DNA from: a bacterium | Lineage (GTDB): Bacteria; JAMCPX01 | NCBI GenBank assembly: GCA_021792615.1 | Contig: JAJYUJ010000001.1 | Location: forward strand, 1 to 64,000 | Length of the DNA: 64,000 bases | Direction: 5' to 3' | In this document: positions 24,413 to 58,455 of the stretch, in pieces | How the letters are laid out: each line of letters opens with the position of its first letter | Position numbering within the stretch: position 1 is the stretch's first letter | Notes under the pieces: generated by a model | The model's input: the letters and a program-made list of their open reading frames with translations, nothing else | Told to the model about the DNA's origin: nothing | Databases searched by the model: none | Translations under genes and position numbers: made by a program

Positions 24413-24462
24413 AAGTATCGTTCCTTTAACTCCTTACCGTTCATCCCTTTCCTTTTTCTGTG

Positions 24463-24549
24463 CCCCCTCTTAAGATAAGAGAGGATAGGGGGCGTTATGA
24501 TTTTGTACTGTTTTTCGTAACTCCCTTAATCCCTCTTACCCTAAGAGGG
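24463..24549. repeat. Two short hairpins inside the acyl-CoA operon gap
   Basis: TCTTA-AGA-TAAGA with outer CCCCC/GGGGG arms (24463-24492) and a perfect CCCTCTTA-CCC-TAAGAGGG (24531-24549) lie in the 203-nt gap between the DUF35 gene and the thiolase gene. The cores resemble the repeats at 335-450. They could lower downstream expression or mark an mRNA processing point; otherwise the gap seems empty. Confidence 0.6.
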
Positions 24550-24615
24550 ATAACACAGAAGCAAATGCGTACATACAAAATCCCATTCTTTCTTTATTGT
24601 GCATTACTCAAACTT

Positions 24616-25815
24616 CTATTTTTCATCCCTTTCCAGTACCAGACACACGGTCCATGCTGCGCCCGGTCCTCCGATGCTCTGGACAAGCCCTGTCTTTGCG
24701 TTCTTAATCTGACGGCGGCCTGCCTCGTCCCTCAAGTGCATCACGATCTCGTTTGCCTGCATGATCCCGGTCGCACCGACGGCATGGCCGCACCCTATAA
24801 GCCCGCCGCTGACATTGACCGGCAGTTTTCCGTCCCGCATGACAACGCCTTCATCGATGAGTCTGCCGCCCGCTCCCTCGTTGCAGAAAAAACAGTCCTC
24901 ATACGCGATAAGTTCGGTTCCGGTGAACGCATCGTGCAGCTCTGCAAGGTCTATCTCTTCCACCGGGTCGTGGATGCCGGCCATGGTGTACGCTTTTTTT
25001 GCCGCTATCCTGCTTGACTCGAAGCTGTACAAGTCTTGCCTGTTGCCGATGACCGCCCAGTCCAGCGCTGCGCCGATGCCCTTTATCCAAACCGGCGGTT
25101 TTTTTAATGTCCTAGCAACATCCTCGGATGCAAGGATGAGGACTGCGGAACCCTCGGAGTAAAGGCAGTTGTCGTACCGCTTGAACGGATATGCGATCAT
25201 AGGCGATTTCATGACATCATCGACCGTCAGTGCAATCGGACTCTGGGCAACGGGGTTGAGGAGGGCGTTGGTGTGGTTTTTAACGGAGACCTTCGCCATC
25301 TGTAACTCTGTCGGGTTCCCGTATTTTTCCCTGTGAGCGATGGTTGTCAGCGCAAAGGATCCCGCTGCTGTCCTTCCGGTCGGCTGTTCGTACGTCATGT
25401 CCGCTGTATAGGAGATCGCCTTGAGTACCTCGGGGCTCGATTTGCCGGTCTCATAATCGAAGCAGTCCGCGGATTTCTCGACCCCGGCGACGAGGCACAC
25501 GTCGTAGAGCCCCGACGCAATCTGGGCAAAGCCCGCGCTGATTGCACTGCCGCCTGTTGCACCGCCTGTGGAAACCCTGATTGCAGGTTTCGGCGCCATG
25601 CCGAGATAATCATGGACAAACAGATCGGGCTGGAATTGACGTTCGAAGAAGTCGTTGTATATGCCGTACACGACACAGTCTATCCTGTCCCTGGTAATGC
25701 CGGCATCAGCGAGCGCGGACTTTACCGCATCGAACGCGAGTTCGAAGTATGTTTTTTCAATCCACCGGGACCTGAACTGTGTCGTGCCGATGCCGACAAT
25801 GCCGACCTTTCTCAT
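24616..25815 (-). CDS. SCP2-type thiolase homolog lacking both catalytic cysteines
   Basis: 399 aa; start at ATG 25815, which overlaps the upstream stop as TGATG; the family N-terminus MRKVGIVGIGTTQF begins there. The fold is thiolase-like (VKSALADAGITRDRID, YDVCLVAGVEKSADC, NVSGGLIGCGHAVGATG with the conserved His). The nucleophile motif CASGxxA reads GATGGSA, with Gly85 in place of Cys, and the C-terminal CxGGG reads SIGGPG, with Ser380 in place of Cys. Classical thiolysis is therefore unlikely. Thiolase-like proteins of the Ltp2 type lack the Cys and cleave beta-hydroxyacyl-CoA by retro-aldol chemistry together with a DUF35 protein, which is present here. The exact reaction is inferred. 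Confidence 0.85.
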   Translation of the reverse strand: MRKVGIVGIGTTQFRSRWIEKTYFELAFDAVKSALADAGITRDRIDCVVYGIYNDFFERQFQPDLFVHDYLGMAPKPAIRVSTGGATGGSAISAGFAQIASGLYDVCLVAGVEKSADCFDYETGKSSPEVLKAISYTADMTYEQPTGRTAAGSFALTTIAHREKYGNPTELQMAKVSVKNHTNALLNPVAQSPIALTVDDVMKSPMIAYPFKRYDNCLYSEGSAVLILASEDVARTLKKPPVWIKGIGAALDWAVIGNRQDLYSFESSRIAAKKAYTMAGIHDPVEEIDLAELHDAFTGTELIAYEDCFFCNEGAGGRLIDEGVVMRDGKLPVNVSGGLIGCGHAVGATGIMQANEIVMHLRDEAGRRQIKNAKTGLVQSIGGPGAAWTVCLVLERDEK

Positions 25816-26951
25816 CACAGCTCCCGTGAAACCACGAGCTTCTGTACCTCTATCGTACCCTGTGCTGCAATCCATGAGAATGCGTCCCGTAAATAGCGCT
25901 CGACCGGATACTCCGGGGATGCGCCGTAAGCACCGAGCACTCTGCTTGCGAGCTCCACGGCGCCGACCAGTGTCTCGGCAGCGTAGAACTTTGCCATAGA
26001 TGTTTCTTTTTTGTGCCGCATGCCCTTGTCGTGCATCAGCGCGACCCGGTAGGTGAGCAGCCGCGCTGCATCGATCCTTGCCGCGAGCCCGGAAAGCGGG
26101 AATGCGATTGCCTGGTTATCTATGATAGGTTTTCCGGCAACCGTCCTTTGTTTTGCGAATTTTACAGCCGTATCGAATGCAGCAGCAGCAAGACCCGTAA
26201 ACCCGGCAGCAAGGCTTATCCTTGTAGTGTTCAGGATCTCGAGTGCGAGCTTTAATCCTTCATCCGGTTTTCCGAGAAGGTTCTGGTCCGGGACAGCCAG
26301 GCCGTCAAACCTGATATTGAACGCCCGGTGCCCTCTCAGGCCCATAGTTTGGGCGTGGCTTTCAAAAACAAGTCCCTTCGGCTTGCCCTCAAGGATAAAA
26401 CCGCTGATGCCTTTTCCGCCCTTTTTAGGAGACGTTTTTGCGAACAGGATGTAGAATTCCGATATATCTGCGAACGTAACAAGTCTCTTTCTGCCGTTCA
26501 GAACATACCCCTTTTCCGTTTTTGTTGCCGTGGTTTTCATACCGGCAGGATCTGAGCCCGGTCCTTCGTCCGTGAGCGCATAACATCCTACCATGCCGTC
26601 CGCCAGCCGTGTCAGGTAGTTTTTTTTCTGTTGTTCGGTGCCGCCGAAGAGAAGTCCGTGGACGAATAGTTGTGCAATCTCGACGAGCGGGATCAGAGCA
26701 GGACATGCGTAGCCGACTTGTTCCGCGACAACGCAGACATCCATGGTGCTCAGCCCCAGACCATTGTACGCTTTGGGCACGGACATTGCGGTCAAACGCA
26801 GCGGTTCGCCCAGCAGCTTCTTTATCAGTGTTTCGGGGATCACATCGTCATGGTCTATCTTCTCCGCAAGAGGTGCTACCTCTTTTGCCATGTACTCGCG
26901 TGCCTGATCGCGCAATTTTATCTGCGATTCGGTCAAAAACACATCTGCCAT
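25815..26951 (-). CDS. Acyl-CoA dehydrogenase family protein, catalytic Glu replaced by Gln
   Basis: 378 aa; start at ATG 26951, preceded by AGGAGG. The ACAD fold is clear: CYALTDEGPGSDPAGMKTTA, the central FAD strand domain, and EYPVERYLRDAFSWI. The segment that normally reads YEGTSxIQ is AQGTIEVQ, giving Gln364 where medium-chain enzymes have the catalytic Glu, and the alternative Glu site in helix G (LDxER in IVD/LCAD) reads LNTTR. No catalytic base is visible at either position. The protein may be a non-catalytic partner, use another base or carry out a different reaction. It is the first gene of the operon with the Cys-less thiolase and faces the MutY-like gene across about 160 nt. Confidence 0.88.
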   Translation of the reverse strand: MADVFLTESQIKLRDQAREYMAKEVAPLAEKIDHDDVIPETLIKKLLGEPLRLTAMSVPKAYNGLGLSTMDVCVVAEQVGYACPALIPLVEIAQLFVHGLLFGGTEQQKKNYLTRLADGMVGCYALTDEGPGSDPAGMKTTATKTEKGYVLNGRKRLVTFADISEFYILFAKTSPKKGGKGISGFILEGKPKGLVFESHAQTMGLRGHRAFNIRFDGLAVPDQNLLGKPDEGLKLALEILNTTRISLAAGFTGLAAAAFDTAVKFAKQRTVAGKPIIDNQAIAFPLSGLAARIDAARLLTYRVALMHDKGMRHKKETSMAKFYAAETLVGAVELASRVLGAYGASPEYPVERYLRDAFSWIAAQGTIEVQKLVVSREL

Positions 26952-27111
26952 ACCATCCTCCTGACAAAGGAATTTATTGATTATTTTATCAATATCAGAA
27001 TAAATCCGTTTATGCAAACAGATTTTTTTGTCGGCATGGAGACGGCAGGCATGCACAGGGAAAGGCTTCGTCCGGGTTGACATCCATCCCTGTTCTTCAT
27101 ATGGTTGACCC

Positions 27112-27939
27112 GTGAAGCAAAAAAGTCCGGCAACCCCTGCAATAAAAAAATTCCGAACCATAATCTCCAGCTCCTATAAAAAGCATGGCAGGGATCTTCC
27201 GTGGCGGAGGACAAAAAACCCCTACCATATCCTCGTGTCCGAAGTCATGCTCCAGCAGACGCAGGTGGAAAGGGTCACCACGAAATATGCAGAGTTCATC
27301 GCTGCTTTCCCGGATTTTACATCGCTCGCAAATGCCTCCCTGCAGGAAGTGCTGCGCGTATGGCAGGGCATGGGGTACAACCGCCGGGCGGTTGCGTTAA
27401 AGGAGATAGCAGTCCGGGTGATACGTGATTTCAACGGCATGCTTCCTGATTCCGTGGATGTGCTCGCAACGCTTCCCGGGATCGGCAGGGCTACAGCTTC
27501 CTCAATTGCCGCCTTTGCGTTTAACCTGCCGGCTGTTTTTATAGAAACGAACATCCGCCGGGTCTTTATCCATTTCTTTTTTCAGGACAAACAAAACATC
27601 AAAGACCCGGACATCCTCCTTCTCGTTGAAAAAACGCTGGACAGGCGCAACCCCGGAGCGTGGTACCATGCTCTTATGGATTATGGCGTGCTGCTCAAGC
27701 GGCAATTCCCCGGGCTCAATAAAAGAAGCGCCCATTATCAAAAACAAACTCCTTTTCAGGGATCGAACAGGCAGATGCGGGGAAGGATCTTAAAGACACT
27801 TATCGAACGCCCTGCAACTGCAGCTGCAATCGCACGGATGCTCATGATCGATGCCGGGCATGCCGGAAAGCTCCTCTTGCAGCTTGGGAAAGAGGGGTTT
27901 ATCATAAAGAAAGGGTCCCGCTATTTCATAGCAGCATGA
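27112..27939 (+). CDS. MutY/HhH-GPD DNA glycosylase-like protein without Fe-S cluster
   Basis: 275 aa with GTG as apparent start. The N-terminal part is clearly MutY-like: LPWRRTKNPYHILVSEVMLQQTQV (catalytic Glu44 in the SEVMLQQT motif) and the helix-hairpin-helix LPGIGRATASSIAAFAF. At the catalytic Asp position the sequence is FIETNIRRV, so Glu145 replaces Asp. The C-x6-C-x2-C-x5-C cluster loop is absent; instead there is RSAHYQKQTPFQGSNRQMRG. The NUDIX-like MutY C-domain is replaced by a small winged-helix-like region. It belongs to a recognisable clusterless sub-family annotated as A/G-specific adenine glycosylase; its true substrate is not established. Confidence 0.85.
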   Translation: MKQKSPATPAIKKFRTIISSSYKKHGRDLPWRRTKNPYHILVSEVMLQQTQVERVTTKYAEFIAAFPDFTSLANASLQEVLRVWQGMGYNRRAVALKEIAVRVIRDFNGMLPDSVDVLATLPGIGRATASSIAAFAFNLPAVFIETNIRRVFIHFFFQDKQNIKDPDILLLVEKTLDRRNPGAWYHALMDYGVLLKRQFPGLNKRSAHYQKQTPFQGSNRQMRGRILKTLIERPATAAAIARMLMIDAGHAGKLLLQLGKEGFIIKKGSRYFIAA

Positions 27940-28005
27940 ACCGGACAAGAGATGCATTGCCCTGAGTTCCGATTTAATGTATGCTTGGTGCAAAGGAGGA
28001 TAGGT

Positions 28006-28455
28006 ATGAATATAAAAAGTATAATTTGGTCAGTGGTTTTCGTAGCAGTATTTGCCACCATCGGTGCAGCTGCTTCACCGAACATGAAGTACGGATTATG
28101 GGAGATAACAACGTCCATGGAGATGAAAGGCATGCCGATGCCGTTTGCCATGAAGCCTATGACACATACCCAGTGTATAAGCAAAAAGGATGTTGAGAAC
28201 CCCGAGAAAACAGTCCCGCAGACATCGAAAGAAAACAAGGACTGTAAAATCAAGGACTATAAGGTTGAGGGAAACCGTGTTTCATGGAAGACCGTGTGCA
28301 CGGGCAAGAACCCTATGACCAGCACCGGAGTCATAACCTATAACCAGGGTACGAGTTATGAGGGGAGCATGACCATGGATACCGAAGGAAACGCCAAAAA
28401 AACCATGCACATGATCTACCATTTTAAAGGGAAACGCATCGGCGACTGCAAATAG
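28006..28455 (+). CDS. Exported DUF3617-family protein
   Basis: 149 aa; ATG 28006 is 6 nt after AAAGGAGG. Sec signal peptide MNIKSIIWSVVFVAVFATIGAAA, then a small beta-rich domain beginning YGLWEITTSMEM and containing CISKKD and KNKDCKIKDYKVEGNRVSW, as in DUF3617. Three or four cysteines suggest disulfides in the periplasm. Function of the family is unknown. It lies 66 nt after the MutY-like gene and 76 nt before an acyl-CoA dehydrogenase; neither neighbour suggests a role. Confidence 0.8.
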   Translation: MNIKSIIWSVVFVAVFATIGAAASPNMKYGLWEITTSMEMKGMPMPFAMKPMTHTQCISKKDVENPEKTVPQTSKENKDCKIKDYKVEGNRVSWKTVCTGKNPMTSTGVITYNQGTSYEGSMTMDTEGNAKKTMHMIYHFKGKRIGDCK

Positions 28456-28531
28456 AAACCGTCTTAACAGCACAAGGGGACGAATCCTCACCCGCCCCTT
28501 TGTGCACATTGTCTGAATAAAGGGCCATAGA

Positions 28532-29668
28532 ATGATATTTGCCGAGAGGGAAGAGTACATAAAGTTACGGGACGAGGTGCGCAGGTTCAATCTCAAAGAA
28601 CTTGCACCGCGAGCAGAGGAGTGCGATGAAAAAGAATCGTTTCCCCTGGATGTACTCAGGCATGCAGCGGGCCTCGGTTATGTCGGCCCCCACCTGCCGG
28701 AACAGTACGGAGGCATGGGTGATTACTATGCAAAGGCTGTCGTTTATGAGGAAAACTGCAGGGTGTCATTCGGATACAACCTTTCTTTGAATGCATCCGA
28801 CCTGATCTTCGCAAACAATATTGCCCGGCATGGATCGGAGGAACAAAAGCAAAAATACCTGCCCGGTATAATCAGGGGAGAAAAAACGGGCTGCTGGGCT
28901 CTGACAGAACCCGATGCGGGCTCCGATGCTCTGTCTATAACAACGAACTGGAAAAAAGACGGCGGAGATTACATCATCAACGGCCGCAAGACGTTTATAA
29001 CCAATGCACCCATAGCGGATTTTTTCATCGTGATAGCGAGAAAGCCCGGCACGACAAAGGCAGAGGGCGGCTGCGCGTTTATCCTTGAAAGGGGCATGCA
29101 GGGCCTGTCCACGGGGAAGCCGTTCAAAAAACTCGGGGGACGGTGCTCGCCGACCGGTGAAGTCGTGCTCGAAGACGTAAGGGTTTCGAAGGACCAGCTC
29201 CTCGGCAAAGAAGGGAACGGATTTAAGGATATGTTTGCGTCCCTTGATGTGGAGCGGGCTTACACCCCGCTTTCAAGCATCGGCATTGCACAGGCATGTC
29301 TTGATGAAGCGGTCGTATATGTAAAACAACGGAAACAATTCGGCCAGTATCTTTCGGAGTTTCAGCTTATACAGGAAAAGCTCGCAGTCATGTCCGCAGA
29401 ACTCGAGGTCGCACGCCATTATGTCTACAACCTGATCGAACTCATGGTCCGGGGGAAAAGGATCACGAAAGAGGCTTCCATTGCAAAGCTGTTTGCCTCG
29501 GACATGGTCAACAGATCGGCACGCGAGGCAATCCAGATCATGGGCGGTTACGGGTACATGCGCGAGTATAAGGTTGAGCGGTATTTCAGGGATGCCAAGC
29601 TGCTCGAGATCGGTGCGGGCACATCCGAGATCCAGAAGCTCATCATAGCGCGGGAACTGCTGAAGTAG
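28532..29668 (+). CDS. Acyl-CoA dehydrogenase, IVD/LCAD-type active site
   Basis: 378 aa. FAD-dependent alpha,beta-dehydrogenation of an acyl-CoA: CWALTEPDAGSDALSITT, GGRCSPTGEVVLEDV, QIMGGYGYMREYKVERYFRDAKLLEIGAGTSEIQ. Ala362 stands where medium-chain enzymes have the catalytic Glu, but Glu241 in SLDVERA matches the helix-G catalytic Glu of isovaleryl- and long-chain enzymes. It should therefore be active, on a branched, long-chain or aromatic acyl-CoA. No electron-transfer flavoprotein genes are in the window. It stands alone between a DUF3617 gene and a YfhO gene. Confidence 0.93.
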   Translation: MIFAEREEYIKLRDEVRRFNLKELAPRAEECDEKESFPLDVLRHAAGLGYVGPHLPEQYGGMGDYYAKAVVYEENCRVSFGYNLSLNASDLIFANNIARHGSEEQKQKYLPGIIRGEKTGCWALTEPDAGSDALSITTNWKKDGGDYIINGRKTFITNAPIADFFIVIARKPGTTKAEGGCAFILERGMQGLSTGKPFKKLGGRCSPTGEVVLEDVRVSKDQLLGKEGNGFKDMFASLDVERAYTPLSSIGIAQACLDEAVVYVKQRKQFGQYLSEFQLIQEKLAVMSAELEVARHYVYNLIELMVRGKRITKEASIAKLFASDMVNRSAREAIQIMGGYGYMREYKVERYFRDAKLLEIGAGTSEIQKLIIARELLK

Positions 29669-47606: not shown

Positions 47607-48641
47607 ATGGCTTTTCACACACTGATCCCGAAGAAGGATCATATACTGTTGCTGGACCAGAGGCTTTTGCCCGGGAAGACCCGTTACCTTAAGGTCAGGA
47701 CATACCGGGATGCGTATGATGTTATCAAGCGAATGGCAGTACGGGGTGCACCGGCAATCGGCGTGACGGCAGCGTTCGGCGTTTGGCTCGGCGCGCGGTC
47801 TGTCAGGACGAATAGTCGTCAGAAGTACCTGTCGGAGCTTCAGAAGGTATGCAAACATCTCGTGAGTGCGCGTCCCACCGCATACAATCTCTCGTGGGCC
47901 GTAAACAGGATGATGGACGTTGCACGTTCCGGAAACCTCGCTCCCGCCGCAGCAACTGCCGCACTGTACAAGGAAGCTGTCCGCATTTATCATGAAGACA
48001 TCGAGGCAAACAGGAAGATGGGTGACTACGGCGCACGGTTGATCAAAAACAAATGGACCGTGCTCACGCACTGTAATGCCGGCGCTCTTGCGACCGCGGG
48101 CTATGGTACTGCTCTCGGAGTCCTTCGCTCGGCAAAGGATGCCGGCAAGGACTTGAAGATTTTCGCTGACGAAACGAGGCCGTTTTTGCAGGGTGCACGG
48201 CTGACCGCATGGGAGCTCCAGCAGGACGGTTTTGACGTAACGCTCATAACGGACAATATGGCGGGGTGGATGATGAAACAGGGGCTTATACACGCCTGCA
48301 TCGTCGGTGCAGACAGGATCGCCGCCAACGGTGATGTCGCGAACAAGGTCGGTACCTACAGCGTTGCCGTACTCGCCCGTGCCCATAACATACCGTTTTA
48401 TGTCGCTGCACCGTCTTCAACATTTGACCCGGGGATGTCTTCGGGAGACGGGATAATCATAGAGGAACGGCCGGACAAAGAGGTCCTGACCATAGCTGGT
48501 ATGCGGATAGCCCCTGCAGGCATTAAGGTGCGCAACCCTGCGTTCGATGTGACACCCGCAAAGTACGTGACCGCAATCATAACAGAGAAAGGCGTCCTCT
48601 TTCCCCCTTATAAAAAGAGCATTCAGAAACTGCTTGTCTGA
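47607..48641 (+). CDS. mtnA: S-methyl-5-thioribose-1-phosphate isomerase
   Basis: 344 aa. Converts methylthioribose-1-phosphate to methylthioribulose-1-phosphate in methionine salvage. Visible: LLDQRLLPGKTRYLKVRTY and MAVRGAPAIGVTAAFGV at the N-terminus, the catalytic Cys in THCNAGALATAGYGTALG, ETRPFLQGARLTAWEL, and the catalytic Asp in VGADRIAANGDVANKVGTY. These separate it from eIF2B-like paralogs. No other salvage genes are in the window; MtnA can also feed 5'-deoxyribose or DHAP-shunt routes, where an aldolase is needed, but the aldolase at 32462 is far away. Confidence 0.96.
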   Translation: MAFHTLIPKKDHILLLDQRLLPGKTRYLKVRTYRDAYDVIKRMAVRGAPAIGVTAAFGVWLGARSVRTNSRQKYLSELQKVCKHLVSARPTAYNLSWAVNRMMDVARSGNLAPAAATAALYKEAVRIYHEDIEANRKMGDYGARLIKNKWTVLTHCNAGALATAGYGTALGVLRSAKDAGKDLKIFADETRPFLQGARLTAWELQQDGFDVTLITDNMAGWMMKQGLIHACIVGADRIAANGDVANKVGTYSVAVLARAHNIPFYVAAPSSTFDPGMSSGDGIIIEERPDKEVLTIAGMRIAPAGIKVRNPAFDVTPAKYVTAIITEKGVLFPPYKKSIQKLLV

Positions 48642-48676: not shown

Positions 48677-49885
48677 ATGGATTTTGAAGTGTCTGAAAAG
48701 ATGAAGGTCGTTTTAGGCATGATCAATGAATTTGTCGAAAAAGAACTTATCCCGCTCGAGCCTGAGTTTGTGAACAAGAGTATCAAGAGCATGATCCCGG
48801 TGCTCAAGGAAAAAAGGCGGATGGTCAAAAAGATGGAATTGTGGGCGCCGAACCAACCGAAAGATTACGGGGGTATGGGGCTTGATCTTATAGAGCATGC
48901 GCTTGTTTCCGAGGCCCTTGGCAAGTCTCCGCTCGGTCATTATGTGTTCGGCTGTCAGGCACCCGATGCAGGCAATATGGAGATACTCTATCTCCACGGT
49001 ACGCCGGAGCAAAAGGAAAAATATCTGAAGCCGCTTATTGCAGGCGACATCCGGAGCTGTTTCAGCATGACCGAGCCCGAGATGCCGGGGTCGAACCCCG
49101 TTATGCTGGAAACCACTGCGGTGAAGGACGGGAGTGACTATGTGATCAACGGACAAAAATGGTTTTCCACGGCAGCAGACGGCGCCGCGTTCACCATCGT
49201 TATGGCAATAACGAACCCGGATGAGCATCCCTATATGCGTGCAAGCATGATCATTGTCCCGACCGATACAAAGGGCTACAGCCTTGTCAGGAATATCCCC
49301 GTTATGGGACACACGGGAGAGGATTATTTTTCCCACGGCGAGGTAGCTTTTCAGTCATGCAGGGTGCCACAGACGAACCTGCTCGGCCCGGAAGGTATGG
49401 GGTTTGTGATTGCACAGGAGCGGCTCGGGCCCGGAAGGATACACCACTGCATGCGGTGGATAGGTATCTGCAACAGGTCGTTCGACCTTATGTGTTCCAG
49501 GGCGTCCAGGAGGATTATGTCCCCGGACGGTAAAACGCTTGCGACAAAACAGATCGTCCAGGAATGGATAGCCGATTCCGCAGCTGAGATCAGCGCCGCA
49601 CGGCTGATGGTGCTCAATGCAGCATGGAAGATAGAGAAGCTCGGTCAGAAAGAGGCGCGGGATGATGTATCGTTTATAAAATACTATGTTGCCGGCGTTT
49701 TGCAGCGTGTTGTAGACAGGGCATTGCAGGTGCACGGAGGACTCGGTATGACGGATGATACAATCCTTGCTTTTTTCTACCGGCACGAGCGCGCCGCACG
49801 CATATACGACGGTGCGGACGAGGTGCACAAGATGTCCGTTGCGAAGAGGATACTGAAAACATACGAAGGGAGAGATGTACGCTAA
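48677..49885 (+). CDS. ACAD10/11-like acyl-CoA dehydrogenase (LvaC-type)
   Basis: 402 aa ACAD with FAD domain marks (CFSMTEPEMPGSNPVMLETTA, QERLGPGRIHHCMRW, HGGLGMTDDTILAFFYR). The segment aligned with YEGTSxIQ is RIYDGADEVHK, so Asp378 replaces the catalytic Glu; the xDGxDEVH form is typical of ACAD10/11 and their bacterial relatives. In those, the enzyme works on a phosphorylated 4-hydroxyacyl-CoA and expels phosphate to give an enoyl-CoA. The likely kinase partner follows about 200 nt downstream at 50087. Its ATG has AAAGGAG upstream. Substrate chain length is not readable. Confidence 0.9.
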   Translation: MDFEVSEKMKVVLGMINEFVEKELIPLEPEFVNKSIKSMIPVLKEKRRMVKKMELWAPNQPKDYGGMGLDLIEHALVSEALGKSPLGHYVFGCQAPDAGNMEILYLHGTPEQKEKYLKPLIAGDIRSCFSMTEPEMPGSNPVMLETTAVKDGSDYVINGQKWFSTAADGAAFTIVMAITNPDEHPYMRASMIIVPTDTKGYSLVRNIPVMGHTGEDYFSHGEVAFQSCRVPQTNLLGPEGMGFVIAQERLGPGRIHHCMRWIGICNRSFDLMCSRASRRIMSPDGKTLATKQIVQEWIADSAAEISAARLMVLNAAWKIEKLGQKEARDDVSFIKYYVAGVLQRVVDRALQVHGGLGMTDDTILAFFYRHERAARIYDGADEVHKMSVAKRILKTYEGRDVR

Positions 49886-50086
49886 CCCTAATAAGCCAAA
49901 TTCTAAATTCGAAACCATAAATTCTAAACAAAAAAGCGCTAAAAATAGAATTTCGATCATTTAAAATTTGAATTTATTTAGGATTTAGATATTAGAGTTT
50001 AGTATTTAAGAAAACGGTGGATCGCTGGTTTGAACGAACAAGTTAATTCAACTGTTACATTTTTGTGTTAAAGATAAAGGCTGATT
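49886..50086. other. AT-rich gap between the ACAD11-like gene and its kinase partner
   Basis: 201 nt. The first 130 are AT-rich with imperfect repeats of the type AAATTCTAAATTCGAAA and ATAAATTCTAAAC, and a looser inverted version (AATTTGAATTTATTTAGGAT). At 50016-50070 a decayed MITE right end is visible (GGTGGATCGCTGGTTTGAAC). No gene is seen. A promoter for the kinase gene could lie here, but none is clear. Confidence 0.6.
50016..50070 (+). repeat. Decayed right end of the MITE-like element
   Basis: GGTGGATCGCTGGTTTGAAC and the following bases to TTTTGTGTT align with GGTGGATCGCGGGATTGAGC ... TTTTCCGGGTT of copy A at roughly 70 percent identity. It ends 16 nt before the kinase gene start. 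A left-end remnant follows the same gene at 51144. Confidence 0.55.
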
Positions 50087-51145
50087 ATGGATTTTACGGA
50101 CAAAGCAAAAAAAATACGCGAAGGCGAGCAGCTTGATATTCCCCGGATAGAACAGTTCCTCAAGGACAGCATACCCGGGCTGAAGGGTGCACTTGCCGTG
50201 GAGCAGTTCCCGAGCGGGTATTCGAACCTTACCTACATGATAAAGGTCGGCGATACGGAGCTTGTTCTCAGAAGGCCGCCGTTCGGCACCAAGGCAAAAA
50301 CAGCGCATGACATGAAAAGGGAATATACAATACTCAATGCGCTTAAGCCCGTTTTCCCCTATTGTCCCAAACCCCTCTTATACGCCGGGGATCCCTCAGT
50401 TATGGGCTGCCCTTTCTACGTTATGGAGCGCATACAGGGTATTATCCTGAGGAGGGATCTGCCCAATGGCCTTGTGTTCAGACCCGAAGATGCAAGGCGG
50501 CTCTGTGAAAACCTGCTCGATGTTCAAATCGAACTGCATTCCATTGATTATAAAAAAATAGGTCTTGCCGGTTTCGGCAAGCCTGAGGGGTATGTGAAAC
50601 GCCAGGTCGACGGCTGGTCTGAGAGATACAGGAATGCGCGGACGGAAGACGCACCCGATTTTGAGACTGTCATGAAATGGTTGCAGGAAAAGATGCCGAA
50701 AGAGACGGGTAGTCCCTGCATCATCCACAACGACTACAAGTTTGACAATGTTGTGCTATCTCCCGAAAACCCGCTGCAGATCATCGGCGTGCTTGACTGG
50801 GAAATGGCAACTATAGGCGATCCGCTCATGGACCTCGGCAGTTCTCTTGCCTACTGGATACAGGCTGATGATCCTCCGGAGTTTCAGGCAATACGCATGA
50901 TGCCAACGGACATGCCGGGAGCCATGACACGGGACGAGCTCGTGCGGCGCTATGCCGGGAAATCGGGCACGCGCATCGATGACTTCGATTTCTATTACTG
51001 TTTCGGCTTGTTCCGGCTCGCGGGTATTGCCCAGCAGATATACTACCGCTATTTTCACAAGCAGACAAAGGACGAGCGCTTTGCACTGTTGATCTTTGCC
51101 GTAAAGGCCCTCGAACAGGCGGCATTGCGGGTCATAGAACGATAA
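50087..51145 (+). CDS. APH-fold acyl-CoA hydroxyl kinase (ACAD10/11 N-domain-like, LvaA-type)
   Basis: 352 aa aminoglycoside-phosphotransferase fold: nucleotide loop FPSGYSNLTYMI, Lys/Arg strand ELVLRRPPFGTKAKTAHDM, FYVMERIQGIIL, the catalytic loop IIHNDYKFDN (HxD....N form) and the metal loop GVLDWEMATIGDPLMDLG. The order and wording (SNLTYMIKV, LRRPP, HDMKREY, DWEMATIGDPLMD) match the N-terminal kinase half of ACAD10/11, not antibiotic-resistance kinases. It should phosphorylate the 4-hydroxyl of a hydroxyacyl-CoA for the ACAD encoded upstream. Its stop TAA is also the start of a decayed MITE end. Confidence 0.88.
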   Translation: MDFTDKAKKIREGEQLDIPRIEQFLKDSIPGLKGALAVEQFPSGYSNLTYMIKVGDTELVLRRPPFGTKAKTAHDMKREYTILNALKPVFPYCPKPLLYAGDPSVMGCPFYVMERIQGIILRRDLPNGLVFRPEDARRLCENLLDVQIELHSIDYKKIGLAGFGKPEGYVKRQVDGWSERYRNARTEDAPDFETVMKWLQEKMPKETGSPCIIHNDYKFDNVVLSPENPLQIIGVLDWEMATIGDPLMDLGSSLAYWIQADDPPEFQAIRMMPTDMPGAMTRDELVRRYAGKSGTRIDDFDFYYCFGLFRLAGIAQQIYYRYFHKQTKDERFALLIFAVKALEQAALRVIER

Positions 51146-51264: not shown

Positions 51265-51798
51265 ATGATAAACCTTATTTTAAAAACAATAAGGACCCCA
51301 AAAAATATAATCCCGGTTAATATCGATGATCCCGAACAGGCGGAAATCATTGCCGTCGGCGAAAAGATACAAGACAAGGTAAAGCGATTGTTCAGAGGTT
51401 CCCTTTCCATAAGACAGATAGATGCGGGTTCCGACAATGCCTGCGAACAGGAACTCGTCGCCCTTTCCAATGCCTTCTATGATGTTGAACGTTTTGGTAT
51501 CCATTTTGTTGCCTCCCCGAAACATGCGGATATGCTTATGGTAACCGGCCCTGTAACGAGGAACATGGCAAAAGCACTGCGGCGGGCGTATGAAGCTACG
51601 CCCGATCCAAAGATTGTAGTGGTTGTCGGAGACGATGCAATAAACGGCGGTATTTATAGAGGCGCTTATGCGGTGCTGGATGGGGTGGATACCATAGTGC
51701 CGGTGCATTACCAGATTCCCGGAGACCCCCCGTCGCCAAAAACCATTCTCTATCACCTTCTCAAAATTTTTGACACACTGGACAGGAAGCTATTATAA
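51265..51798 (+). CDS. NuoB/HyfI-like subunit with N2-cluster cysteines replaced by Asp
   Basis: 177 aa. Alignment by eye with HyfI/NuoB: DAGSDNACEQEL for the family CNGCEIE loop, FGIHFVASPKHADMLMVTGPVT, then VVVGDDAINGGIY for GxCGxxGG and VHYQIPGDPPSPK for the IPGCPP motif. Of the four [4Fe-4S] ligands only Cys60 is left; positions 57, 124 and 154 are Asp. The fold signature is intact, so it is not a random pseudogene, but it cannot bind the usual N2 cluster. It is the first gene of the operon and would form the membrane-facing connecting subunit next to the NuoH-like and NuoD-like subunits. HyfI-like naming is by homology only. Confidence 0.88.
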   Translation: MINLILKTIRTPKNIIPVNIDDPEQAEIIAVGEKIQDKVKRLFRGSLSIRQIDAGSDNACEQELVALSNAFYDVERFGIHFVASPKHADMLMVTGPVTRNMAKALRRAYEATPDPKIVVVVGDDAINGGIYRGAYAVLDGVDTIVPVHYQIPGDPPSPKTILYHLLKIFDTLDRKLL

Positions 51799-51803
51799 AT
51801 ACC

Positions 51804-53855
51804 ATGCTCTCTACCGTTACCTCCTCCATGGGTTTTATTGTCCTGTTGTCGCTGTTTGCCGCGGGTGCGGCCGGTGCTTTCGTGCTGCGAAAACATGACG
51901 CGCCAGCCAATGCGTGGACCAGCCTGTTTTCGATTGCCGGCTCCTCGTGGGGCATATTCTTTGCACTTTCCGTTTTCATCACCGGGCACGATCTAACCTT
52001 TGCCGCCGGAACAGCGATTTTCCCGCTCCTTTCCCTGTCATTTCATATCGACAAGCTGTCCGCCTTTTTCATTTTTGTTGTTTCTTTGATAGCCCTCTTT
52101 TCTTCTCTGTACGGGATCGGATATGTAAAACATTATTATAAGACGTACAGCATCGGCGCTCTTGGATTTTTTTACAATCTGTTCATTGCGGGTATGCTCC
52201 TCGTGGTATCCGCCTCCAACGGGATCTTTTTCCTTATTGCATGGGAAATCATGTCCGTTACGTCTTATTTCCTTGTCGTGTTTGACCGCAACGATGAGAA
52301 CAATGTTAAGGCAGGGTTCCTCTATCTCATCATGACCCATGTCGGTACGGCTTTTATTATTCTTGCCTTTTTACTGTTTTATAAATTTACCGGCTCATTT
52401 GATTTTGAAACCGTGAAAGCCGGCGCTGCGCTTATTCCTCTATCGGCAAAAAACGCCATTTTTTTGCTAGCCCTGATCGGTTTTGGCACAAAAGCGGGCA
52501 TCGTACCGTTCCATATCTGGCTTCCGGGTGCCCATCCGGCAGCTCCTTCCCACGTCTCTGCGTTGATGTCCGGTGTCATGATTAAAACCGGCATTTATAT
52601 GCTCATCAGGATTTTTCTCGGTATGCTCCAGCCGGTTCCCGTCTGGTGGGGGCTTACGGTGCTCATTGTCGGCTCGGTGTCTTCCTTACTCGGTGTTTTA
52701 TACGCGCTTACCGAGCATGACATCAAAAAACTCCTGGCGTATCACAGCATCGAGAACATCGGGATCATCCTGCTCGGGCTTGGAAGCGCACTTACTTTTT
52801 CTTCGCTCGGCATGCCGTCGCTTGCACTCCTCGGACTCATTGCAGCGCTCTTTCATACCTTGAATCACGCTGTCTTTAAATCCCTGCTTTTCTTAAGTTC
52901 TGGTTCGGTCATCAACCAAACACATACGCGGAACATGGAAGAATACGGCGGGCTTATCCGCTTTATGCCGCAGACAGCTTTTTTCTTCCTGGTGGGTGCC
53001 ATGGCAATATCCGCCCTGCCTCCGTTGAACGGATTTTTTAGCGAATGGCTGACATTTCAGTCTCTTTTCCAGGGAATAACAATGAAGGCTTTTTCCGTAA
53101 AATGGACTTTTATACTGGCGTCCGGAGCACTCGCGTTTACCGGAGGACTCGCGCTCGCTTGTTTTGTAAAGGCGTTCGGTGCAACATTCCTTGCACGTCC
53201 AAGGGGTCCGGAAGTCGCTCATGCAAAGGAGTCATCACTCTCTTTGCGTGCGGCTATGGGGGCTCTTGCTCTCCTGTCCGTTTTATTCGGAATATTTTCC
53301 GGATACCTGATACCTTTTATTGAAAGCATCGGAAGCGGGCTTGGTGCTTTTCAAAACGCCCCATCGTTTGTGAACGTGTCCCCGGGTCTGGGCATTACCG
53401 TGGGGAATGGTTTTTCATCCGTTTCCGCACCGGCGCTTTTGTTGGCATTTGCCGGTGTTATTTCTCTTGTTGTCGTTACCGTCAAGTTTATCATCAACAG
53501 GACGCAGAGGGTCAAGATCGGCGCCACATGGGATTGCGGTACCGACTTAACGCAGCGCATGGAAATAACCGCTACCGGGTTTGCCCGTTCGATCATCCTT
53601 ATCTTTAAGGGCGTGCTCAAACCGAGTATCCAGAAAGAAATCGAATACAATGATTCCAAAAGCAGGTATTTACCGAAAACCAGGACCGTCATTCTCGGGG
53701 TCAGCGATGTATACGGGTCTTATGTTTATAAACCCTTGCGTAAGATGATTACCGGATTATCCGAGCGCGCGAAGGACATCCAAAGCGGAAACATAAATGC
53801 CTACATTTCCTATATCTTCATCGCGCTGCTCGCCGCTTTATTTTTGGTGCTCTGA
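51804..53855 (+). CDS. HyfB/NuoL-like proton-channel subunit
   Basis: 683 aa, about 14-16 membrane helices. Channel residues of the antiporter fold are present: Glu in LIAWEIMSVTSYFLV, Lys in IGFGTKAGIVPFHIWLPGAHPAAPS, Lys in KKLLAYHSIENIG and Lys in HTLNHAVFKSLLFL. C-terminal soluble loop GATWDCGTDLTQRMEITATGFARS is of the Hyf/Hyc type. Like HyfB it ends with a further membrane helix. It starts 5 nt after the NuoB-like gene and should translocate H+ or Na+ in the membrane arm. Confidence 0.93.
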   Translation: MLSTVTSSMGFIVLLSLFAAGAAGAFVLRKHDAPANAWTSLFSIAGSSWGIFFALSVFITGHDLTFAAGTAIFPLLSLSFHIDKLSAFFIFVVSLIALFSSLYGIGYVKHYYKTYSIGALGFFYNLFIAGMLLVVSASNGIFFLIAWEIMSVTSYFLVVFDRNDENNVKAGFLYLIMTHVGTAFIILAFLLFYKFTGSFDFETVKAGAALIPLSAKNAIFLLALIGFGTKAGIVPFHIWLPGAHPAAPSHVSALMSGVMIKTGIYMLIRIFLGMLQPVPVWWGLTVLIVGSVSSLLGVLYALTEHDIKKLLAYHSIENIGIILLGLGSALTFSSLGMPSLALLGLIAALFHTLNHAVFKSLLFLSSGSVINQTHTRNMEEYGGLIRFMPQTAFFFLVGAMAISALPPLNGFFSEWLTFQSLFQGITMKAFSVKWTFILASGALAFTGGLALACFVKAFGATFLARPRGPEVAHAKESSLSLRAAMGALALLSVLFGIFSGYLIPFIESIGSGLGAFQNAPSFVNVSPGLGITVGNGFSSVSAPALLLAFAGVISLVVVTVKFIINRTQRVKIGATWDCGTDLTQRMEITATGFARSIILIFKGVLKPSIQKEIEYNDSKSRYLPKTRTVILGVSDVYGSYVYKPLRKMITGLSERAKDIQSGNINAYISYIFIALLAALFLVL

Positions 53856-53858
53856 ATT

Positions 53859-54791
53859 ATGATGACACTCTTATGGACAATGCAATTTATCATGGTGCCG
53901 GCGGTAGCACCTCTCTGTGCGGGCATTATTAAAAAACTCAAGGCCAGGCTTCAAGGCCGGGAGGGTGCGGGTATCTTTCAGCCGTACAAAGATATAAAAA
54001 AACTCCTCTATAAGGACGAGGTGATCAGCAGGGACGCCTCCTGGGTCTTCCGATATGCGCCGTACATCATCTTTGCCGTGACCGTTGTCGCCGGTGCAAG
54101 CATCCCGCTCTTCGCGTCCTTCCTCAAAAACACCCTGACGGGCGATTTGCTGGTTATCATCTATACGCTTTCCATCGGCACGTTCTTCCTGGCGCTTGCG
54201 GGTATGGACACGGGGAGTGCTTTCGGAGGATTTGGTGCGAGCCGTGAGATGACTGTTTCCGCACTCGCAGAAGGAGGACTTATATTCTCGCTCTTGACCG
54301 TCGCTCTTGTGAGCGGGACCACCAATCTGTTTGCCGTTTCCGGCACCGGTATGTTTACTCTGGGACGGTCTTTCCTTCCCAGGATATTGGCGTTCGGCGG
54401 GTTTTTTATCGTGTTGCTTGCCGAGACCGGACGCTTCCCTTTCGATAATCCCGCAACGCATCTTGAGCTGACCATGATCCATGAAGCCATGATTCTGGAA
54501 TATTCGGGAAAAAGACTTGCGCTTATGGAATGGGCATCGGCAAACAAACTCTTTATCTTTGCAGCCATGGTGGCGAACCTCTTTTTCCCCTGGGGTATTG
54601 CGCAGAGTCCGGATGCGATTGCGGTTATCCTCGGTATAACCACATTTGGCATTAAAATATTCCTTTTTTGTATCGTTATTGCCGCGCTGGAATCAAGCAT
54701 GGCCAAGTTCAGATTCTTCCGGCTGCCGGACCTTTTAATCCTCTCCTTTATTCTGAATGCCATTGCGATCGGGCTGGTCTTTCCATTATGA
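53859..54791 (+). CDS. HyfC/NuoH-like membrane anchor subunit
   Basis: 310 aa with about 8 membrane helices. Conserved loop residues of NuoH/HyfC are present: GIFQPYKDIKKLLYKDEVI, GASREMTVSALAEGGLIFS, LLAETGRFPFDNPATHLELTMIHEAMILEYSG. The acidic residues of these loops form the half-channel that couples the soluble arm to proton pumping in complex I. It begins 3 nt after the NuoL-like gene and overlaps the HyfE-like gene by 4 nt. Confidence 0.93.
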   Translation: MMTLLWTMQFIMVPAVAPLCAGIIKKLKARLQGREGAGIFQPYKDIKKLLYKDEVISRDASWVFRYAPYIIFAVTVVAGASIPLFASFLKNTLTGDLLVIIYTLSIGTFFLALAGMDTGSAFGGFGASREMTVSALAEGGLIFSLLTVALVSGTTNLFAVSGTGMFTLGRSFLPRILAFGGFFIVLLAETGRFPFDNPATHLELTMIHEAMILEYSGKRLALMEWASANKLFIFAAMVANLFFPWGIAQSPDAIAVILGITTFGIKIFLFCIVIAALESSMAKFRFFRLPDLLILSFILNAIAIGLVFPL

Positions 54792-55435
54792 ATATCTGGG
54801 TTTTGCGATTATTGCTTGAGATAGTTTTTTTGACCGTTGTCTTCCTGCACCTCGTAAAAAAGAATTACGGGGCCGTGCTCGCGTATACGATCCAGTCCCT
54901 CGCGATTGTTGCGGTACTGTTCAATTCTTTTCTTGAGACGGGCGGAATGTCCCTGCTTCTGATAGCCCTGCTGGCATTGATCGTAAAAGTGATTTTGGCA
55001 CCGCTCTTTTTTGTCCGGATGATCAAAAAAAACGGATTGAGGTTTTCGGTAAGTACCTATCTGAATACACCGCTCACCCTGATAGTGATTGCAGCGATTA
55101 CCGCCATAGCCCACTCCCAAAAACTCGCACCGCTTGCGGATATCGTTCCTGCCAATCATGCACTGCTTTCGCTTGCGCTTTCCGCCATGTTGCTTTCTCT
55201 TGTTTTAATCATCAACCGCAAAGGCGCGCTGTCGCAGATTATCGGTATCCTTTCATTCGAAAACAGCATTATTGCCTTTGCCGTCTTTGCCGGTCTTGAA
55301 CAGTCACCGTCCTTGCAGGCGGGCATTCTGTTCGACCTTTTCGTTTGGCTTGTTATCGCTACGGTATTTATGGCCATGATCTATAAACACTTCGGCTCAC
55401 TGGATGTAACCTCCATGAAACATTTGAAAGATTAA
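54788..55435 (+). CDS. HyfE-like membrane subunit
   Basis: 215 aa; ATG 54788 overlaps the previous stop as ATGA, and the longer ORF from 54668 is out of frame with the HyfC-like gene it overlaps. About 7 membrane helices; LHLVKKNYGAVLAYTIQSLAI at the start and LIINRKGALSQIIGILSFENSIIAFAVFAG in the middle are NuoK/HyfE-like, with Glu in SFENSI aligning with a channel Glu. Together with its neighbours it forms the NuoJK-equivalent part of the membrane arm. Confidence 0.85.
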   Translation: MNIWVLRLLLEIVFLTVVFLHLVKKNYGAVLAYTIQSLAIVAVLFNSFLETGGMSLLLIALLALIVKVILAPLFFVRMIKKNGLRFSVSTYLNTPLTLIVIAAITAIAHSQKLAPLADIVPANHALLSLALSAMLLSLVLIINRKGALSQIIGILSFENSIIAFAVFAGLEQSPSLQAGILFDLFVWLVIATVFMAMIYKHFGSLDVTSMKHLKD

Positions 55436-55439
55436 CCGT

Positions 55440-56882
55440 ATGGAACTCCTTATCATTCTCATATCCCTTTTTACGGCAGCATTGATCGGTATATCGGTCA
55501 GGCACCGGCGCATTATCGAGACCGCTTCGGTTGTTGCTTCGGCAGTCTCGTTTGCGGCGTCGGTTGCTGTCGCACTCAAGGTCGCTTCCTCAGGCAGCTA
55601 TGCACCGTACTCATTTTTTTACGTCGATGCACTCGGTGCTATTGTTATGCTTATCATAGCCTGTGTCGGGTTTGCGGTAACCGTGTATTCGGTTGCATAT
55701 CTCCGGCAGGAAACCGCAAAGAAGATCATCGGGTTCACCAGGGTCAAGCAATATTTTGTTCTGCTGGACCTGTTCATAGTGGCGATGTTTCTTGCGGTCA
55801 CAGCCAGCAGCCCGATAGTAACATGGATTTCCGTAGAGGCCACGACGCTTTCCACCGCATTTCTCATCAGCTTTTACAATAAACCGTCAGCCATGGAAGC
55901 GGCATGGAAGTATCTCATCATTAATTCTATCGGACTGCTGCTCGGATTTTTCGGGACGCTCCTGTATTTCATTCCCCTGAACCCCTTGCGGGGAAGCGGG
56001 CTTATCAGCTGGCAGATGCTTGCGGCCAGTACAGCGCATTTCGATCCGTTGATCGCCAGGATTGCTTTCGTCTTTGTACTGATCGGGTACGGAACGAAGG
56101 CCGGGCTTGTACCGATGCACACATGGCTGCCGGACGCCCACAGTAAAGCACCGGCACCGATCAGCGCACTCCTGTCGGGAGTGCTTCTGAATGTCGCATT
56201 TGTCGTCATCCTCAGATTTAAAGGCATAACCGATGCAGTCGTCGGCAGGTCTTTTTCCCAGGGGTTTTTAATACTGTTCGGTGTAATTTCCATGCTCGTC
56301 GCAGCCTTGATCATTCTTACCCAGGCGAACTATAAACGGCTGCTTGCATATTCAAGCATTGAAAATATGGGTATCCTGTCCCTTGGATTCGGTTTTGGAG
56401 GCCTTGGTGCCTTTGCCGCGATTCTCCATATGATCTACCATGCCCTTGTAAAATCCACACTGTTTCTGTCGGCGGGCACGGTTTTATTAAAGTACAGTTC
56501 AACAAAAATTGCCAGGGTGACCGGAGTGCTTGCTACGCTTACCGTGACGGGTATACTTTTTCTGACAGGGTTTTTCTTTATCACCGGCACCCCGCCGTTC
56601 GGCATATTCCTCACCAAAATATTTATTCTTTCCGCCGGTATAAAAACGCACCCGGTGGCCGTTCTCGTGGCGTTGTTTTCCACGGCAGTCCTGTTTATCG
56701 GGTTCTTCAAACATATTACAGCCATGTTCTTCGGTAAAAAACCGGAGGGAATCAAGGCAGGCGAAGGGAGTGTCTGGCTCGTTGTTCCGCCACTTGCACT
56801 CATTGCCGTTGCTTTTTACCTGAGTTTCCATATTCCGGGATTTTTATTTACCTTAATCAACGGGGCGGTATCACACGAGTGA
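55440..56882 (+). CDS. HyfF/NuoN-like proton-channel subunit
   Basis: 480 aa, about 14 membrane helices. Channel residues: Glu in TWISVEATTLSTAFLISF, Lys in IGYGTKAGLVPMHTWLPDAHSKAPAPISALLSG, Lys in NYKRLLAYSSIENMGI, and MIYHALVKSTLFLSAG. The WLPDAHSKAPAPISALLSG wording is that of HyfF/NuoN-type antiporter subunits. It starts 4 nt after the HyfE-like gene and ends 1 nt before the large-subunit gene. A second ion channel in the complex. Confidence 0.93.
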   Translation: MELLIILISLFTAALIGISVRHRRIIETASVVASAVSFAASVAVALKVASSGSYAPYSFFYVDALGAIVMLIIACVGFAVTVYSVAYLRQETAKKIIGFTRVKQYFVLLDLFIVAMFLAVTASSPIVTWISVEATTLSTAFLISFYNKPSAMEAAWKYLIINSIGLLLGFFGTLLYFIPLNPLRGSGLISWQMLAASTAHFDPLIARIAFVFVLIGYGTKAGLVPMHTWLPDAHSKAPAPISALLSGVLLNVAFVVILRFKGITDAVVGRSFSQGFLILFGVISMLVAALIILTQANYKRLLAYSSIENMGILSLGFGFGGLGAFAAILHMIYHALVKSTLFLSAGTVLLKYSSTKIARVTGVLATLTVTGILFLTGFFFITGTPPFGIFLTKIFILSAGIKTHPVAVLVALFSTAVLFIGFFKHITAMFFGKKPEGIKAGEGSVWLVVPPLALIAVAFYLSFHIPGFLFTLINGAVSHE

Positions 56883-56883
56883 T

Positions 56884-58455
56884 ATGAAGATAGAAACTCT
56901 ACAACAATACGTTCCTATAAACGCAAAGACCGGTATTTCCGGTAATGCCATTATTTTTGAAGTGCCGGTTTTGAACATCAAAGAGATCGCCCTCTCACTG
57001 TACGGCAACGAAGAGCTTTCGCTCAAACTTATTACTGCGACCGATGAAAGAGAAACGCAGGGATGTTTTAAAGTGTGGTACATCTTCGGTGTTCCGAAGG
57101 AGAATGCGTTTATCATTCCTTTTATTCGATTGAAAAATACGGAAGAATTCCCTTCTCTGACTCCCGGCATACATGAAGCCTGGAATTATGAAAGAAAAAT
57201 TCAGACGTTCTTCGGTCTCACGCCGTCCGGTCATCCCGATCCACGGACGATCATCCTTCATGAAAACTGGCCCGGAGACATTTTCCCTCTCAGGAAAGAC
57301 GTTAACTGGCAAACAAGGCCGCCAGAATCGCAGGGAACATATCAATTCCAGAAAGTCGAAGGCGAGGGGATATACGAACTGCCGGTCGGGCCGATCCATG
57401 CCGGCATCATCGAACCGGGGCATTTCCGGTTCAGCGTCGCAGGGGAAGAGATCCTCCTTCTGGAACCACGCCTCGGATATACCCATAAGGGCATCGAAAA
57501 ATTATTCGAGAAGTCACCCCTGGACAAGCAGGTGCGCCTGTCCGAGAAGATCTCGGGCGACAGTTCGTTCAGCCATTCTCTGGCTTTTTGCCAGGCGGTA
57601 GAACAACTGGGAGATAGTGTGGTGCCGCGCCGGGCACGATATCTCCGGGTAATCTATGCAGAACTGGAACGATTGGCAAACCATACAGGCGACCTCGGTG
57701 CGATTATGCTTGATGCGGGTTTTAATTTCGGCGGTGCACAGGGAGCGAGGCTCAGGGAAATCATCATGCAGATAAACGGGAGGATCACCGGGAGCAGGTT
57801 TTTGCGCGGCGTCAATGTTGCCGGCGGGGTTGCGAAAGACATTGCCTCCGGAGAAAAGGATAGATTATCCGGAGAGCTTTCGGCCATAGCAAAAGATTTT
57901 TCCGAAATTATCGAGGTAGCGGAAAACAGCACATCGCTGCTGAACCGTCTGAAAGGTACCGGCGTCGTCTCCTACGGGGTCGCAAAAGATCACGGTGCTG
58001 TAGGGATCGCCGCAAAAGCGGCAGGCATAGAAGGGGACACGCGAATCGATTTTCCGTATGCGGCTTACGATGAACTGCGACCCGATGGGGTAGAAACAGA
58101 ACAGGGCGGTGACGTCTACGCGCGCTTCCTCGTCCGCGTCAAAGAAGTGCGTGCATCGATTGAGATTATTCAGCATGCACTGCATAAACTTCCGGAGGGG
58201 CCTGTCCGGGTGCCCGTGGACACCGCCGCTTTCAGGAAGGACTCGTTTGCAGTAAATGCTGTCGAAGGATGGCGGGGAGAGATCGTGTATTTCATCACAA
58301 CGGATGCGCGGGGAAATATCGCGAGGGTTGCCCCCCGGGATCCCTCGTTTATCAATTGGGCTGTCCTCGGTAATGCCGGGCTTGGTAACGTGGTGCCGGA
58401 TTTCCCCCTGATCAACAAAAGCTTCAATCTGTCGTATTCGGGAAACGATCTGTAA
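56884..58455 (+). CDS. HyfG/NuoCD-like large subunit lacking all NiFe cysteines
   Basis: 523 aa: N-terminal NuoC-like domain (about 1-130, with FGLTPSGHPDPRTIILHENWPGDIFPLRKD) fused to a NuoD/hydrogenase large-subunit domain (ELPVGPIHAGIIEPGHFRFSVAGE, GYTHKGIEKLFEK). The N-terminal CxxC motif reads SGDS (Ser224, Ser227 in EKISGDSSFSHS) and the C-terminal DPCxxC motif reads DPSFIN (Ser488, Asn491). No Ni-Fe site is possible, as in NuoD and in the Ehr group of hydrogenase-related complexes. The fold is otherwise intact. It is the last gene of the six-gene operon; the toxin-antitoxin pair follows after 123 nt. Confidence 0.93.
   Translation: MKIETLQQYVPINAKTGISGNAIIFEVPVLNIKEIALSLYGNEELSLKLITATDERETQGCFKVWYIFGVPKENAFIIPFIRLKNTEEFPSLTPGIHEAWNYERKIQTFFGLTPSGHPDPRTIILHENWPGDIFPLRKDVNWQTRPPESQGTYQFQKVEGEGIYELPVGPIHAGIIEPGHFRFSVAGEEILLLEPRLGYTHKGIEKLFEKSPLDKQVRLSEKISGDSSFSHSLAFCQAVEQLGDSVVPRRARYLRVIYAELERLANHTGDLGAIMLDAGFNFGGAQGARLREIIMQINGRITGSRFLRGVNVAGGVAKDIASGEKDRLSGELSAIAKDFSEIIEVAENSTSLLNRLKGTGVVSYGVAKDHGAVGIAAKAAGIEGDTRIDFPYAAYDELRPDGVETEQGGDVYARFLVRVKEVRASIEIIQHALHKLPEGPVRVPVDTAAFRKDSFAVNAVEGWRGEIVYFITTDARGNIARVAPRDPSFINWAVLGNAGLGNVVPDFPLINKSFNLSYSGNDL

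Follow-up and report, generated by a model that had tools for sequence, protein, structure and literature searches.

We examined a pair of neighbouring genes in a bacterial genome of 2.5 Mb in 77 contigs (estimated completeness 99.6%; assembly GCA_021792615.1, GTDB lineage JAMCPX01). The genes lie in a window of 64,000 nucleotides, the whole stretch of DNA that was analysed (contig JAJYUJ010000001.1, positions 1 to 64,000), and both open reading frames were found on the forward strand where the original prediction had placed them. The first (48677..49885) encodes a 402-aa FAD enzyme with three recognizable acyl-CoA dehydrogenase (ACAD) domains, and the second (50087..51145) encodes a 352-aa protein with an APH phosphotransferase domain. 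They had been proposed to be a split counterpart of mammalian ACAD10/ACAD11 and of the bacterial LvaA/LvaC pair, acting on 4-hydroxyacyl-CoA. We find it likely that the pair phosphorylates a 4-hydroxyacyl-CoA and then eliminates the phosphate, both reactions being assigned by analogy with ACAD10/11 and LvaA/LvaC. The two products are accordingly named here as a predicted 4-phosphoacyl-CoA lyase of the LvaC/ACAD11 superclade and a predicted 4-hydroxyacyl-CoA 4-kinase of the LvaA/ACAD11-kinase superclade, each belonging to a branch that we call clade II.

In the PDB, the ACAD-fold enzyme matched ACAD11 of human and mouse and their relative 4hr3 best (272-281 bits, about 280 bits to ACAD11), and the next match was a conventional ACAD at 156 bits. 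It is 40-44% identical to ACAD11 and to the bacterial relatives that we place in clade I, which are themselves 54% identical to ACAD11. The DGxDEVH active-site variant noted earlier is present: residues 377-384 read YDGADEVH, and DGADEVH (aa 378-384) is encoded at 49808..49828 (+). Alignment with ACAD11 equates D378 with the catalytic D753 of the mouse enzyme, an Asp where conventional ACADs have a Glu base. A further and more telling motif, ERLGPGRIHHCMR (aa 248-260), absent from the original prediction, includes the stretch RLGPGRIHHCMR (aa 249-260; 49421..49456, +), in which R249, H257 and R260 align with R626, H634 and R637 of mouse ACAD11, the contacts to the 4-phosphate. Residues H257-C258-M259-R260 correspond to the HCMR motif (634-637), which we use as a label for the family. 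When R626, H634 or R637 of ACAD11 was changed to Ala or Leu, the second step was hit hardest and the phospho intermediate built up (PMC12440821). R249, H257, R260 and D378 were invariant in 51/51 family ACADs and absent in the six conventional ACADs sampled. The RLGPGRIHHCMR stretch is stronger evidence for the lyase family than DGxDEVH. The bit scores, and the fact that these residues do not vary, rule out a chance match or mis-called motif.

The similarity of the second protein to the N-terminal half of ACAD10/11, also part of the original prediction, was borne out. Its best PDB matches were 9o56 (335 bits), the ACAD11 kinase domain (180 bits) and 3dxp (178 bits), with other APHs at 50 bits or less. 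For both proteins, the matches to solved structures are enough to settle the fold. When aligned with ACAD11, D216 and N221 of the catalytic loop HNDYKFDN (aa 214-221; 50726..50749, +) match D220 and N225, and D237 matches the metal-binding Asp of DWE. Two further sites stand out in the alignment, R78-E79 (50318..50323, +), where E79 is the alpha-C Glu, and R172-Q173 (50600..50605, +), both residues of which are invariant in kinase clades I, II, A and H. R78 corresponds to R86 and R172 to R176 of ACAD11, which contact CoA in modelling (PMC12440821). Across the family, R78, R172 and Q173 were invariant in 52/52 kinases and mostly missing from 10 other APHs. The window pair thus retains each kinase and lyase residue that mutation or modelling has implicated in ACAD11.

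Co-occurrence of the two genes, which had been suggested as a check, was very strong. We used the 281 genomes of a broad sample that remained once nine genomes of the window's taxonomic family had been set aside, and cut-offs of at least 240 bits for the ACAD and at least 140 bits for the kinase, chosen after the gap in scores had been seen. The ACAD was present in 19 genomes and the kinase in 18; both were found in 18/18 kinase carriers and 18/19 ACAD carriers (Fisher p 1.8e-27), usually linked. The lone ACAD-only genome has a very divergent kinase gene immediately next to the ACAD gene. Within the window's own taxonomic family, seven of the nine genomes carry the pair and the other two carry neither gene. 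Scanning genome contigs with the kinase yielded 79 loci; an HCMR-type ACAD lay within the fetched DNA at 70 of them, and five or six of the remaining nine were cut by a contig end. Annotated plasmid records place the same two neighbours together in Rhodococcus, Massilia, Deinococcus, Azospirillum and Haloferax. The genes adjoin each other as described originally, 201 bp apart in the window and 10 bp apart in its closest relative (proteins 97-98% identical). A gene for a TetR-type regulator lies between ACAD and kinase in 52 of the 70 loci, including most of those from Thermodesulfobacteriota, Spirochaetota and Syntrophomonas (for example locus L038, 5274-5972). By these genomic measures the kinase and the ACAD are a genuine functional unit whose genes are usually neighbours.

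The trees divided this family. On the ACAD side, HCMR-type enzymes stood apart from conventional ACADs (support 100/99) and comprised clade I, with human ACAD11, 4hr3 from M. abscessus, a Burkholderia homologue and others (100/100), and clade II, with the window enzyme and those of Thermodesulfobacteriota, Spirochaetota, Syntrophomonas, Gemmatirosa and Bacteroidota (100/99). Forcing the window ACAD into clade I was rejected (approximately unbiased test, p=5e-5). On the kinase side, a family of 52 rows was separated from other APHs (96/96). The window kinase thereby groups with ACAD11 and bacterial relatives and not among unrelated APHs, the placement that had been named as speaking against the prediction. 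Kinase clade I holds ACAD11 and 3dxp (100/100), and clade II holds the window protein, 9o56 and most others (100/98); the relation of these two clades to smaller Rhodococcus/Massilia and haloarchaeal groups was weakly resolved. The phylogeny indicates that the window proteins are a sister branch of the characterised ACAD11/LvaC branch and that their relationship to LvaA/LvaC is not orthology. The proposed mechanism thus survives both phylogeny and co-occurrence, with the one correction that 'LvaC + LvaA-like' has to be read as a relationship.

Clade II ACADs have Gly87-His88-Tyr89 in place of the clade I Ala-Pro-Glu/Asp. In the window enzyme, H88-Y89 (48938..48943, +) replaces P463-D464 of human ACAD11, the pocket proline and its neighbour. 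This position is His in 26/30 clade II rows and Pro in 12/14 clade I rows. A helix-breaking role that enlarges the cavity has been proposed for P463, which was also termed highly conserved in ACAD10/11 (PMC11342911); our alignment indicates that the pocket proline is a mark of clade I, not of the whole HCMR family. In the kinase, HND stands for HGD in 37/38 clade II rows, so that N215 marks clade II where clade I and nearly all other APHs have Gly. Clade II may differ from clade I in substrate range or rate.

Natural mixed-clade pairs are the best indirect evidence for phosphoacyl-CoA use by clade II. Five loci combine a clade I ACAD with a clade II kinase, namely those of Deinococcus (L126) and Azospirillum (L127) together with L170, L173 and L174, and the reverse combination, a clade II ACAD with a clade I kinase, occurs in L176. 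The partners are separated by an SDR gene in L126 and L173 and by ~730 bp in L174. In constrained-tree tests, for which the groups were picked after the first trees had been seen, clade I membership was rejected for the five mixed-pair kinases (p 4e-10) and for the L176 ACAD (p 0.005). Because partners of either clade stay paired, the two clades most likely pass on the same kind of intermediate. These pairs are consistent with the experimental finding that bacterial halves can stand in for ACAD10 domains (PMC11342911).

In the proposed mechanism, the pair would carry out a two-step, redox-neutral dehydroxylation of a 4-hydroxyacyl-CoA. The kinase would use ATP to phosphorylate the 4-hydroxyl of the CoA thioester, with D216 as catalytic base and R78 and R172 holding CoA. 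The FAD enzyme would then bind the 4-phosphoacyl-CoA, with R249, H257 and R260 around the phosphate. D378 would take the alpha-proton, FAD would act as a transient hydride carrier and phosphate would be expelled, leaving a trans-2-enoyl-CoA that could enter beta-oxidation without electron transfer flavoprotein (ETF).

This arrangement can be set beside several known systems. Mammalian ACAD10/ACAD11 have the same two domains with the same catalytic and phosphate/CoA-binding residues, but as a fused protein, whereas the window pair consists of two genes of a sister clade, has no HAD domain, and carries His for P463 and HND for HGD. The P. putida lva operon for levulinate, as presented in papers that cite its original description, shares with the window a split kinase and ACAD-fold lyase side by side and the same predicted reactions. 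The window ACAD has the residues of the family that LvaC defines; ACAD11, which is 56% identical to LvaC (PMC11342911), served as a proxy for LvaC. The closest solved relative of the kinase, 9o56, is 46% identical and belongs to clade II, but has a HYD loop against HND in the window.

What the substrate might be was addressed from genome content. The same genome encodes AbfD, a 4-hydroxybutyryl-CoA dehydratase/vinylacetyl-CoA isomerase (genome G000, contig C35; locus L191, 2836-4452), with 684 bits to 1u8v and an aligned CxxxC and His/Cys ligand region. AbfD likewise converts a 4-hydroxyacyl-CoA to a 2-enoyl-CoA, but it is an unrelated radical iron-sulfur flavoenzyme that uses no ATP, so that C4 substrates have an ATP-free route. 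Since this separate dehydratase is encoded, the substrate of the pair is, on genome content alone, probably a 4-hydroxyacyl-CoA longer than C4. Both routes are present in the genome, and we infer a division of labour between them. Levulinate, lipid peroxides and lactones had been suggested as sources of the substrate, and the locus gives no support to any of them: no LvaB-, LvaD- or LvaE-like gene was found there, a difference from the lva operon. The pair is flanked by mtnA on one side and a complex I-like operon on the other, with only a spacer between the pair genes. In the open-access literature, we found nothing on anaerobic use of levulinate or 4-hydroxyacyl-CoA by a kinase/lyase route.

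Several points weigh against a 4-hydroxyacyl-CoA kinase and lyase. Neither the pocket loop of clade II (H88-Y89 versus P463-D464) nor its kinase HxD motif is that of ACAD10/11, and our literature search turned up no assay or other experiment on any clade II enzyme. Within the window, the pair has neither an acyl-CoA synthetase gene nor a 4-oxoacyl reductase gene next to it. A divergent etfB-like gene is found upstream in 38 of the 70 loci, many of them from Desulfobacterota, which would suit a true dehydrogenase. This link to etfB, together with the ACAD fold itself, could point to an ordinary acyl-CoA dehydrogenase that feeds ETF while the kinase acts separately. We consider this highly improbable: ACAD10/11 require no electron acceptor (PMC11342911), the combination of HCMR and an Asp base was seen in no conventional ACAD sampled, and the ACAD co-occurs almost perfectly with the kinase. 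A different alternative keeps the logic of phosphorylation followed by elimination but assigns clade II another substrate, with the hydroxyl at another position or with a branched or cyclic hydroxyacyl group. The separation of the clades would fit such a shift, as would the diagnostic changes that lie near the acyl pocket and within the catalytic loop, and the carriers are syntrophs, sulfate reducers and spirochaetes, not the aerobes studied so far. However, the phosphate-contact, base and CoA-contact residues are all unchanged, and mixed clade I/II pairs would fail if the intermediates differed, so we regard another substrate as unlikely.

Two further explanations concern the kinase. The gene mtnA, for S-methyl-5-thioribose-1-phosphate isomerase (47607..48641, +), ends 35 bp upstream of the ACAD gene, and methylthioribose kinase (MtnK) is an APH-fold enzyme; the kinase could on these grounds be MtnK or another small-molecule APH that works with mtnA. 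Yet mtnA is found at the pair in only 5/79 loci, every one from the window's taxonomic family, the MtnK model gave no match to the kinase, and the kinase clusters with ACAD11 kinases and co-occurs with the ACAD. With no model match and no conserved mtnA link, the MtnK identity was rejected; a role beside mtnA has a very slim chance, and mtnA itself probably does not belong to the function of the pair. An aminoglycoside resistance kinase might be read from 9o56, which is labelled 'Aminoglycoside phosphotransferase', but that label is a fold name. The kinase never exceeded 25 bits against true APH(2'') enzymes, on which basis the identity was rejected, and it retains the CoA-binding Arg residues and is linked to an ACAD; a resistance function is slimmer still, close to negligible. 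Phosphorylation of a 4-hydroxyacyl-CoA followed by phosphate elimination thus stays our preferred assignment.

A third protein recurs with the pair. A histidine phosphatase gene flanks it in 47 of the 65 loci with enough upstream DNA, and Deinococcus, Azospirillum, Burkholderia and several further genomes likewise have one next to the pair or to the kinase. Outside the window's taxonomic family, this type of phosphatase was found in 11 genomes, eight of which have the pair (Fisher 7.5e-9). The levulinate cluster of P. citronellolis likewise combines LvaA and LvaC homologues with a histidine phosphatase, for which the authors suggested a possible action on 4-phosphovaleryl-CoA (PMC6692424). The phosphatase that accompanies clade II pairs is retained in the sister genus of the window organism (L033), where the order is mtnA-phosphatase-ACAD-kinase (phosphatase at L033 3820-4527). 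A search of the window's own genome gave no match to the cluster-type phosphatase, with the sister genome G005 as positive control. Its sole PF00300 protein is an alpha-ribazole phosphatase-like CobC, and relocation of the phosphatase elsewhere in the genome was rejected. From gene content, the window's genus has lost the phosphatase, which is therefore dispensable for the core reaction. No PDB sequence relatives of the phosphatase were found at E <= 0.001. At the Haloferax locus a HAD hydrolase takes the place of the histidine phosphatase, recalling the HAD domain of ACAD10, though only as a parallel. We tentatively suggest that clade II is a distinct subfamily, mostly of anaerobes, whose particular substrate range is determined by the His-Tyr loop. 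It would normally act as a module of three proteins, with a dedicated histidine phosphatase that resets or limits phosphoacyl-CoA and so forms a bacterial equivalent of ACAD10's regulatory HAD domain, and in the window it would work without the phosphatase. This fuller scheme has a distinctly lower probability than the two core reactions.

Judged by its sequence, the window pair is a typical and well-conserved case of a known kind, on a branch seemingly without experimental study. Assignment of the ACAD10/11 pathway came as late as 2024-2025, and in our comparison all characterised enzymes belong to a single clade. The window and ~70 related loci reveal a second clade, in Thermodesulfobacteriota, Spirochaetota, Syntrophomonadaceae, Gemmatimonadota, Bacteroidota and others, which brings a recurrent phosphatase partner and natural mixed pairs that indicate interchangeable parts. 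If the assignment is true, 4-hydroxy acid catabolism would extend to anaerobic fatty-acid degraders, and simple split enzymes would be available for testing what FAD and the acyl pocket do.

The intergenic spacer between ACAD and kinase (49886..50086, 201 bp) is AT-rich (27% GC). Only short parts of it recur, at two other places in the genome, so it is not a high-copy element. Because the closest relative (L031) lacks it, the spacer looks like a recent AT-rich insertion. A TetR remnant in the spacer was dismissed, as the loci of the window's family (L031-L036) gave no TetR match and the spacer is missing in L031. None of the NCBIfam equivalog models claims the ACAD or the kinase, a promoter/terminator scan of the locus gave matches no more frequent than chance, and no Rfam families were found at the locus.

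Several other acyl-CoA enzymes are encoded in the genome, as had been noted, with 15 ACAD matches in total. A fatty-acid cluster in the window (22556-29668) comprises 3-oxoacid CoA-transferase A/B, a ChsH2-type OB-fold protein, a thiolase and two conventional ACADs. Downstream of the kinase, a complex I/hydrogenase-4-like operon (51265-58455, +) encodes NuoB-, HyfB-, HyfC-, HyfE-, HyfF- and NuoC/D-like proteins. A CxxC motif is absent from its large subunit (56884-58455), and its NuoB-like subunit contains a single Cys, so both the NiFe ligands and the usual 4Fe-4S ligands are missing. In the missing Ni/Fe ligands the operon resembles the 'energy-converting hydrogenase-related' (Ehr) complexes (PMC6349859), but the additional loss of the NuoB cluster looks more extreme. 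In two Spirochaetes, a second HCMR-type ACAD gene lies ~3.5-4 kb downstream of the kinase (L071 10503-11705; L083 11032-12234), in one case followed by its own TetR gene, and module duplication is a possible origin.

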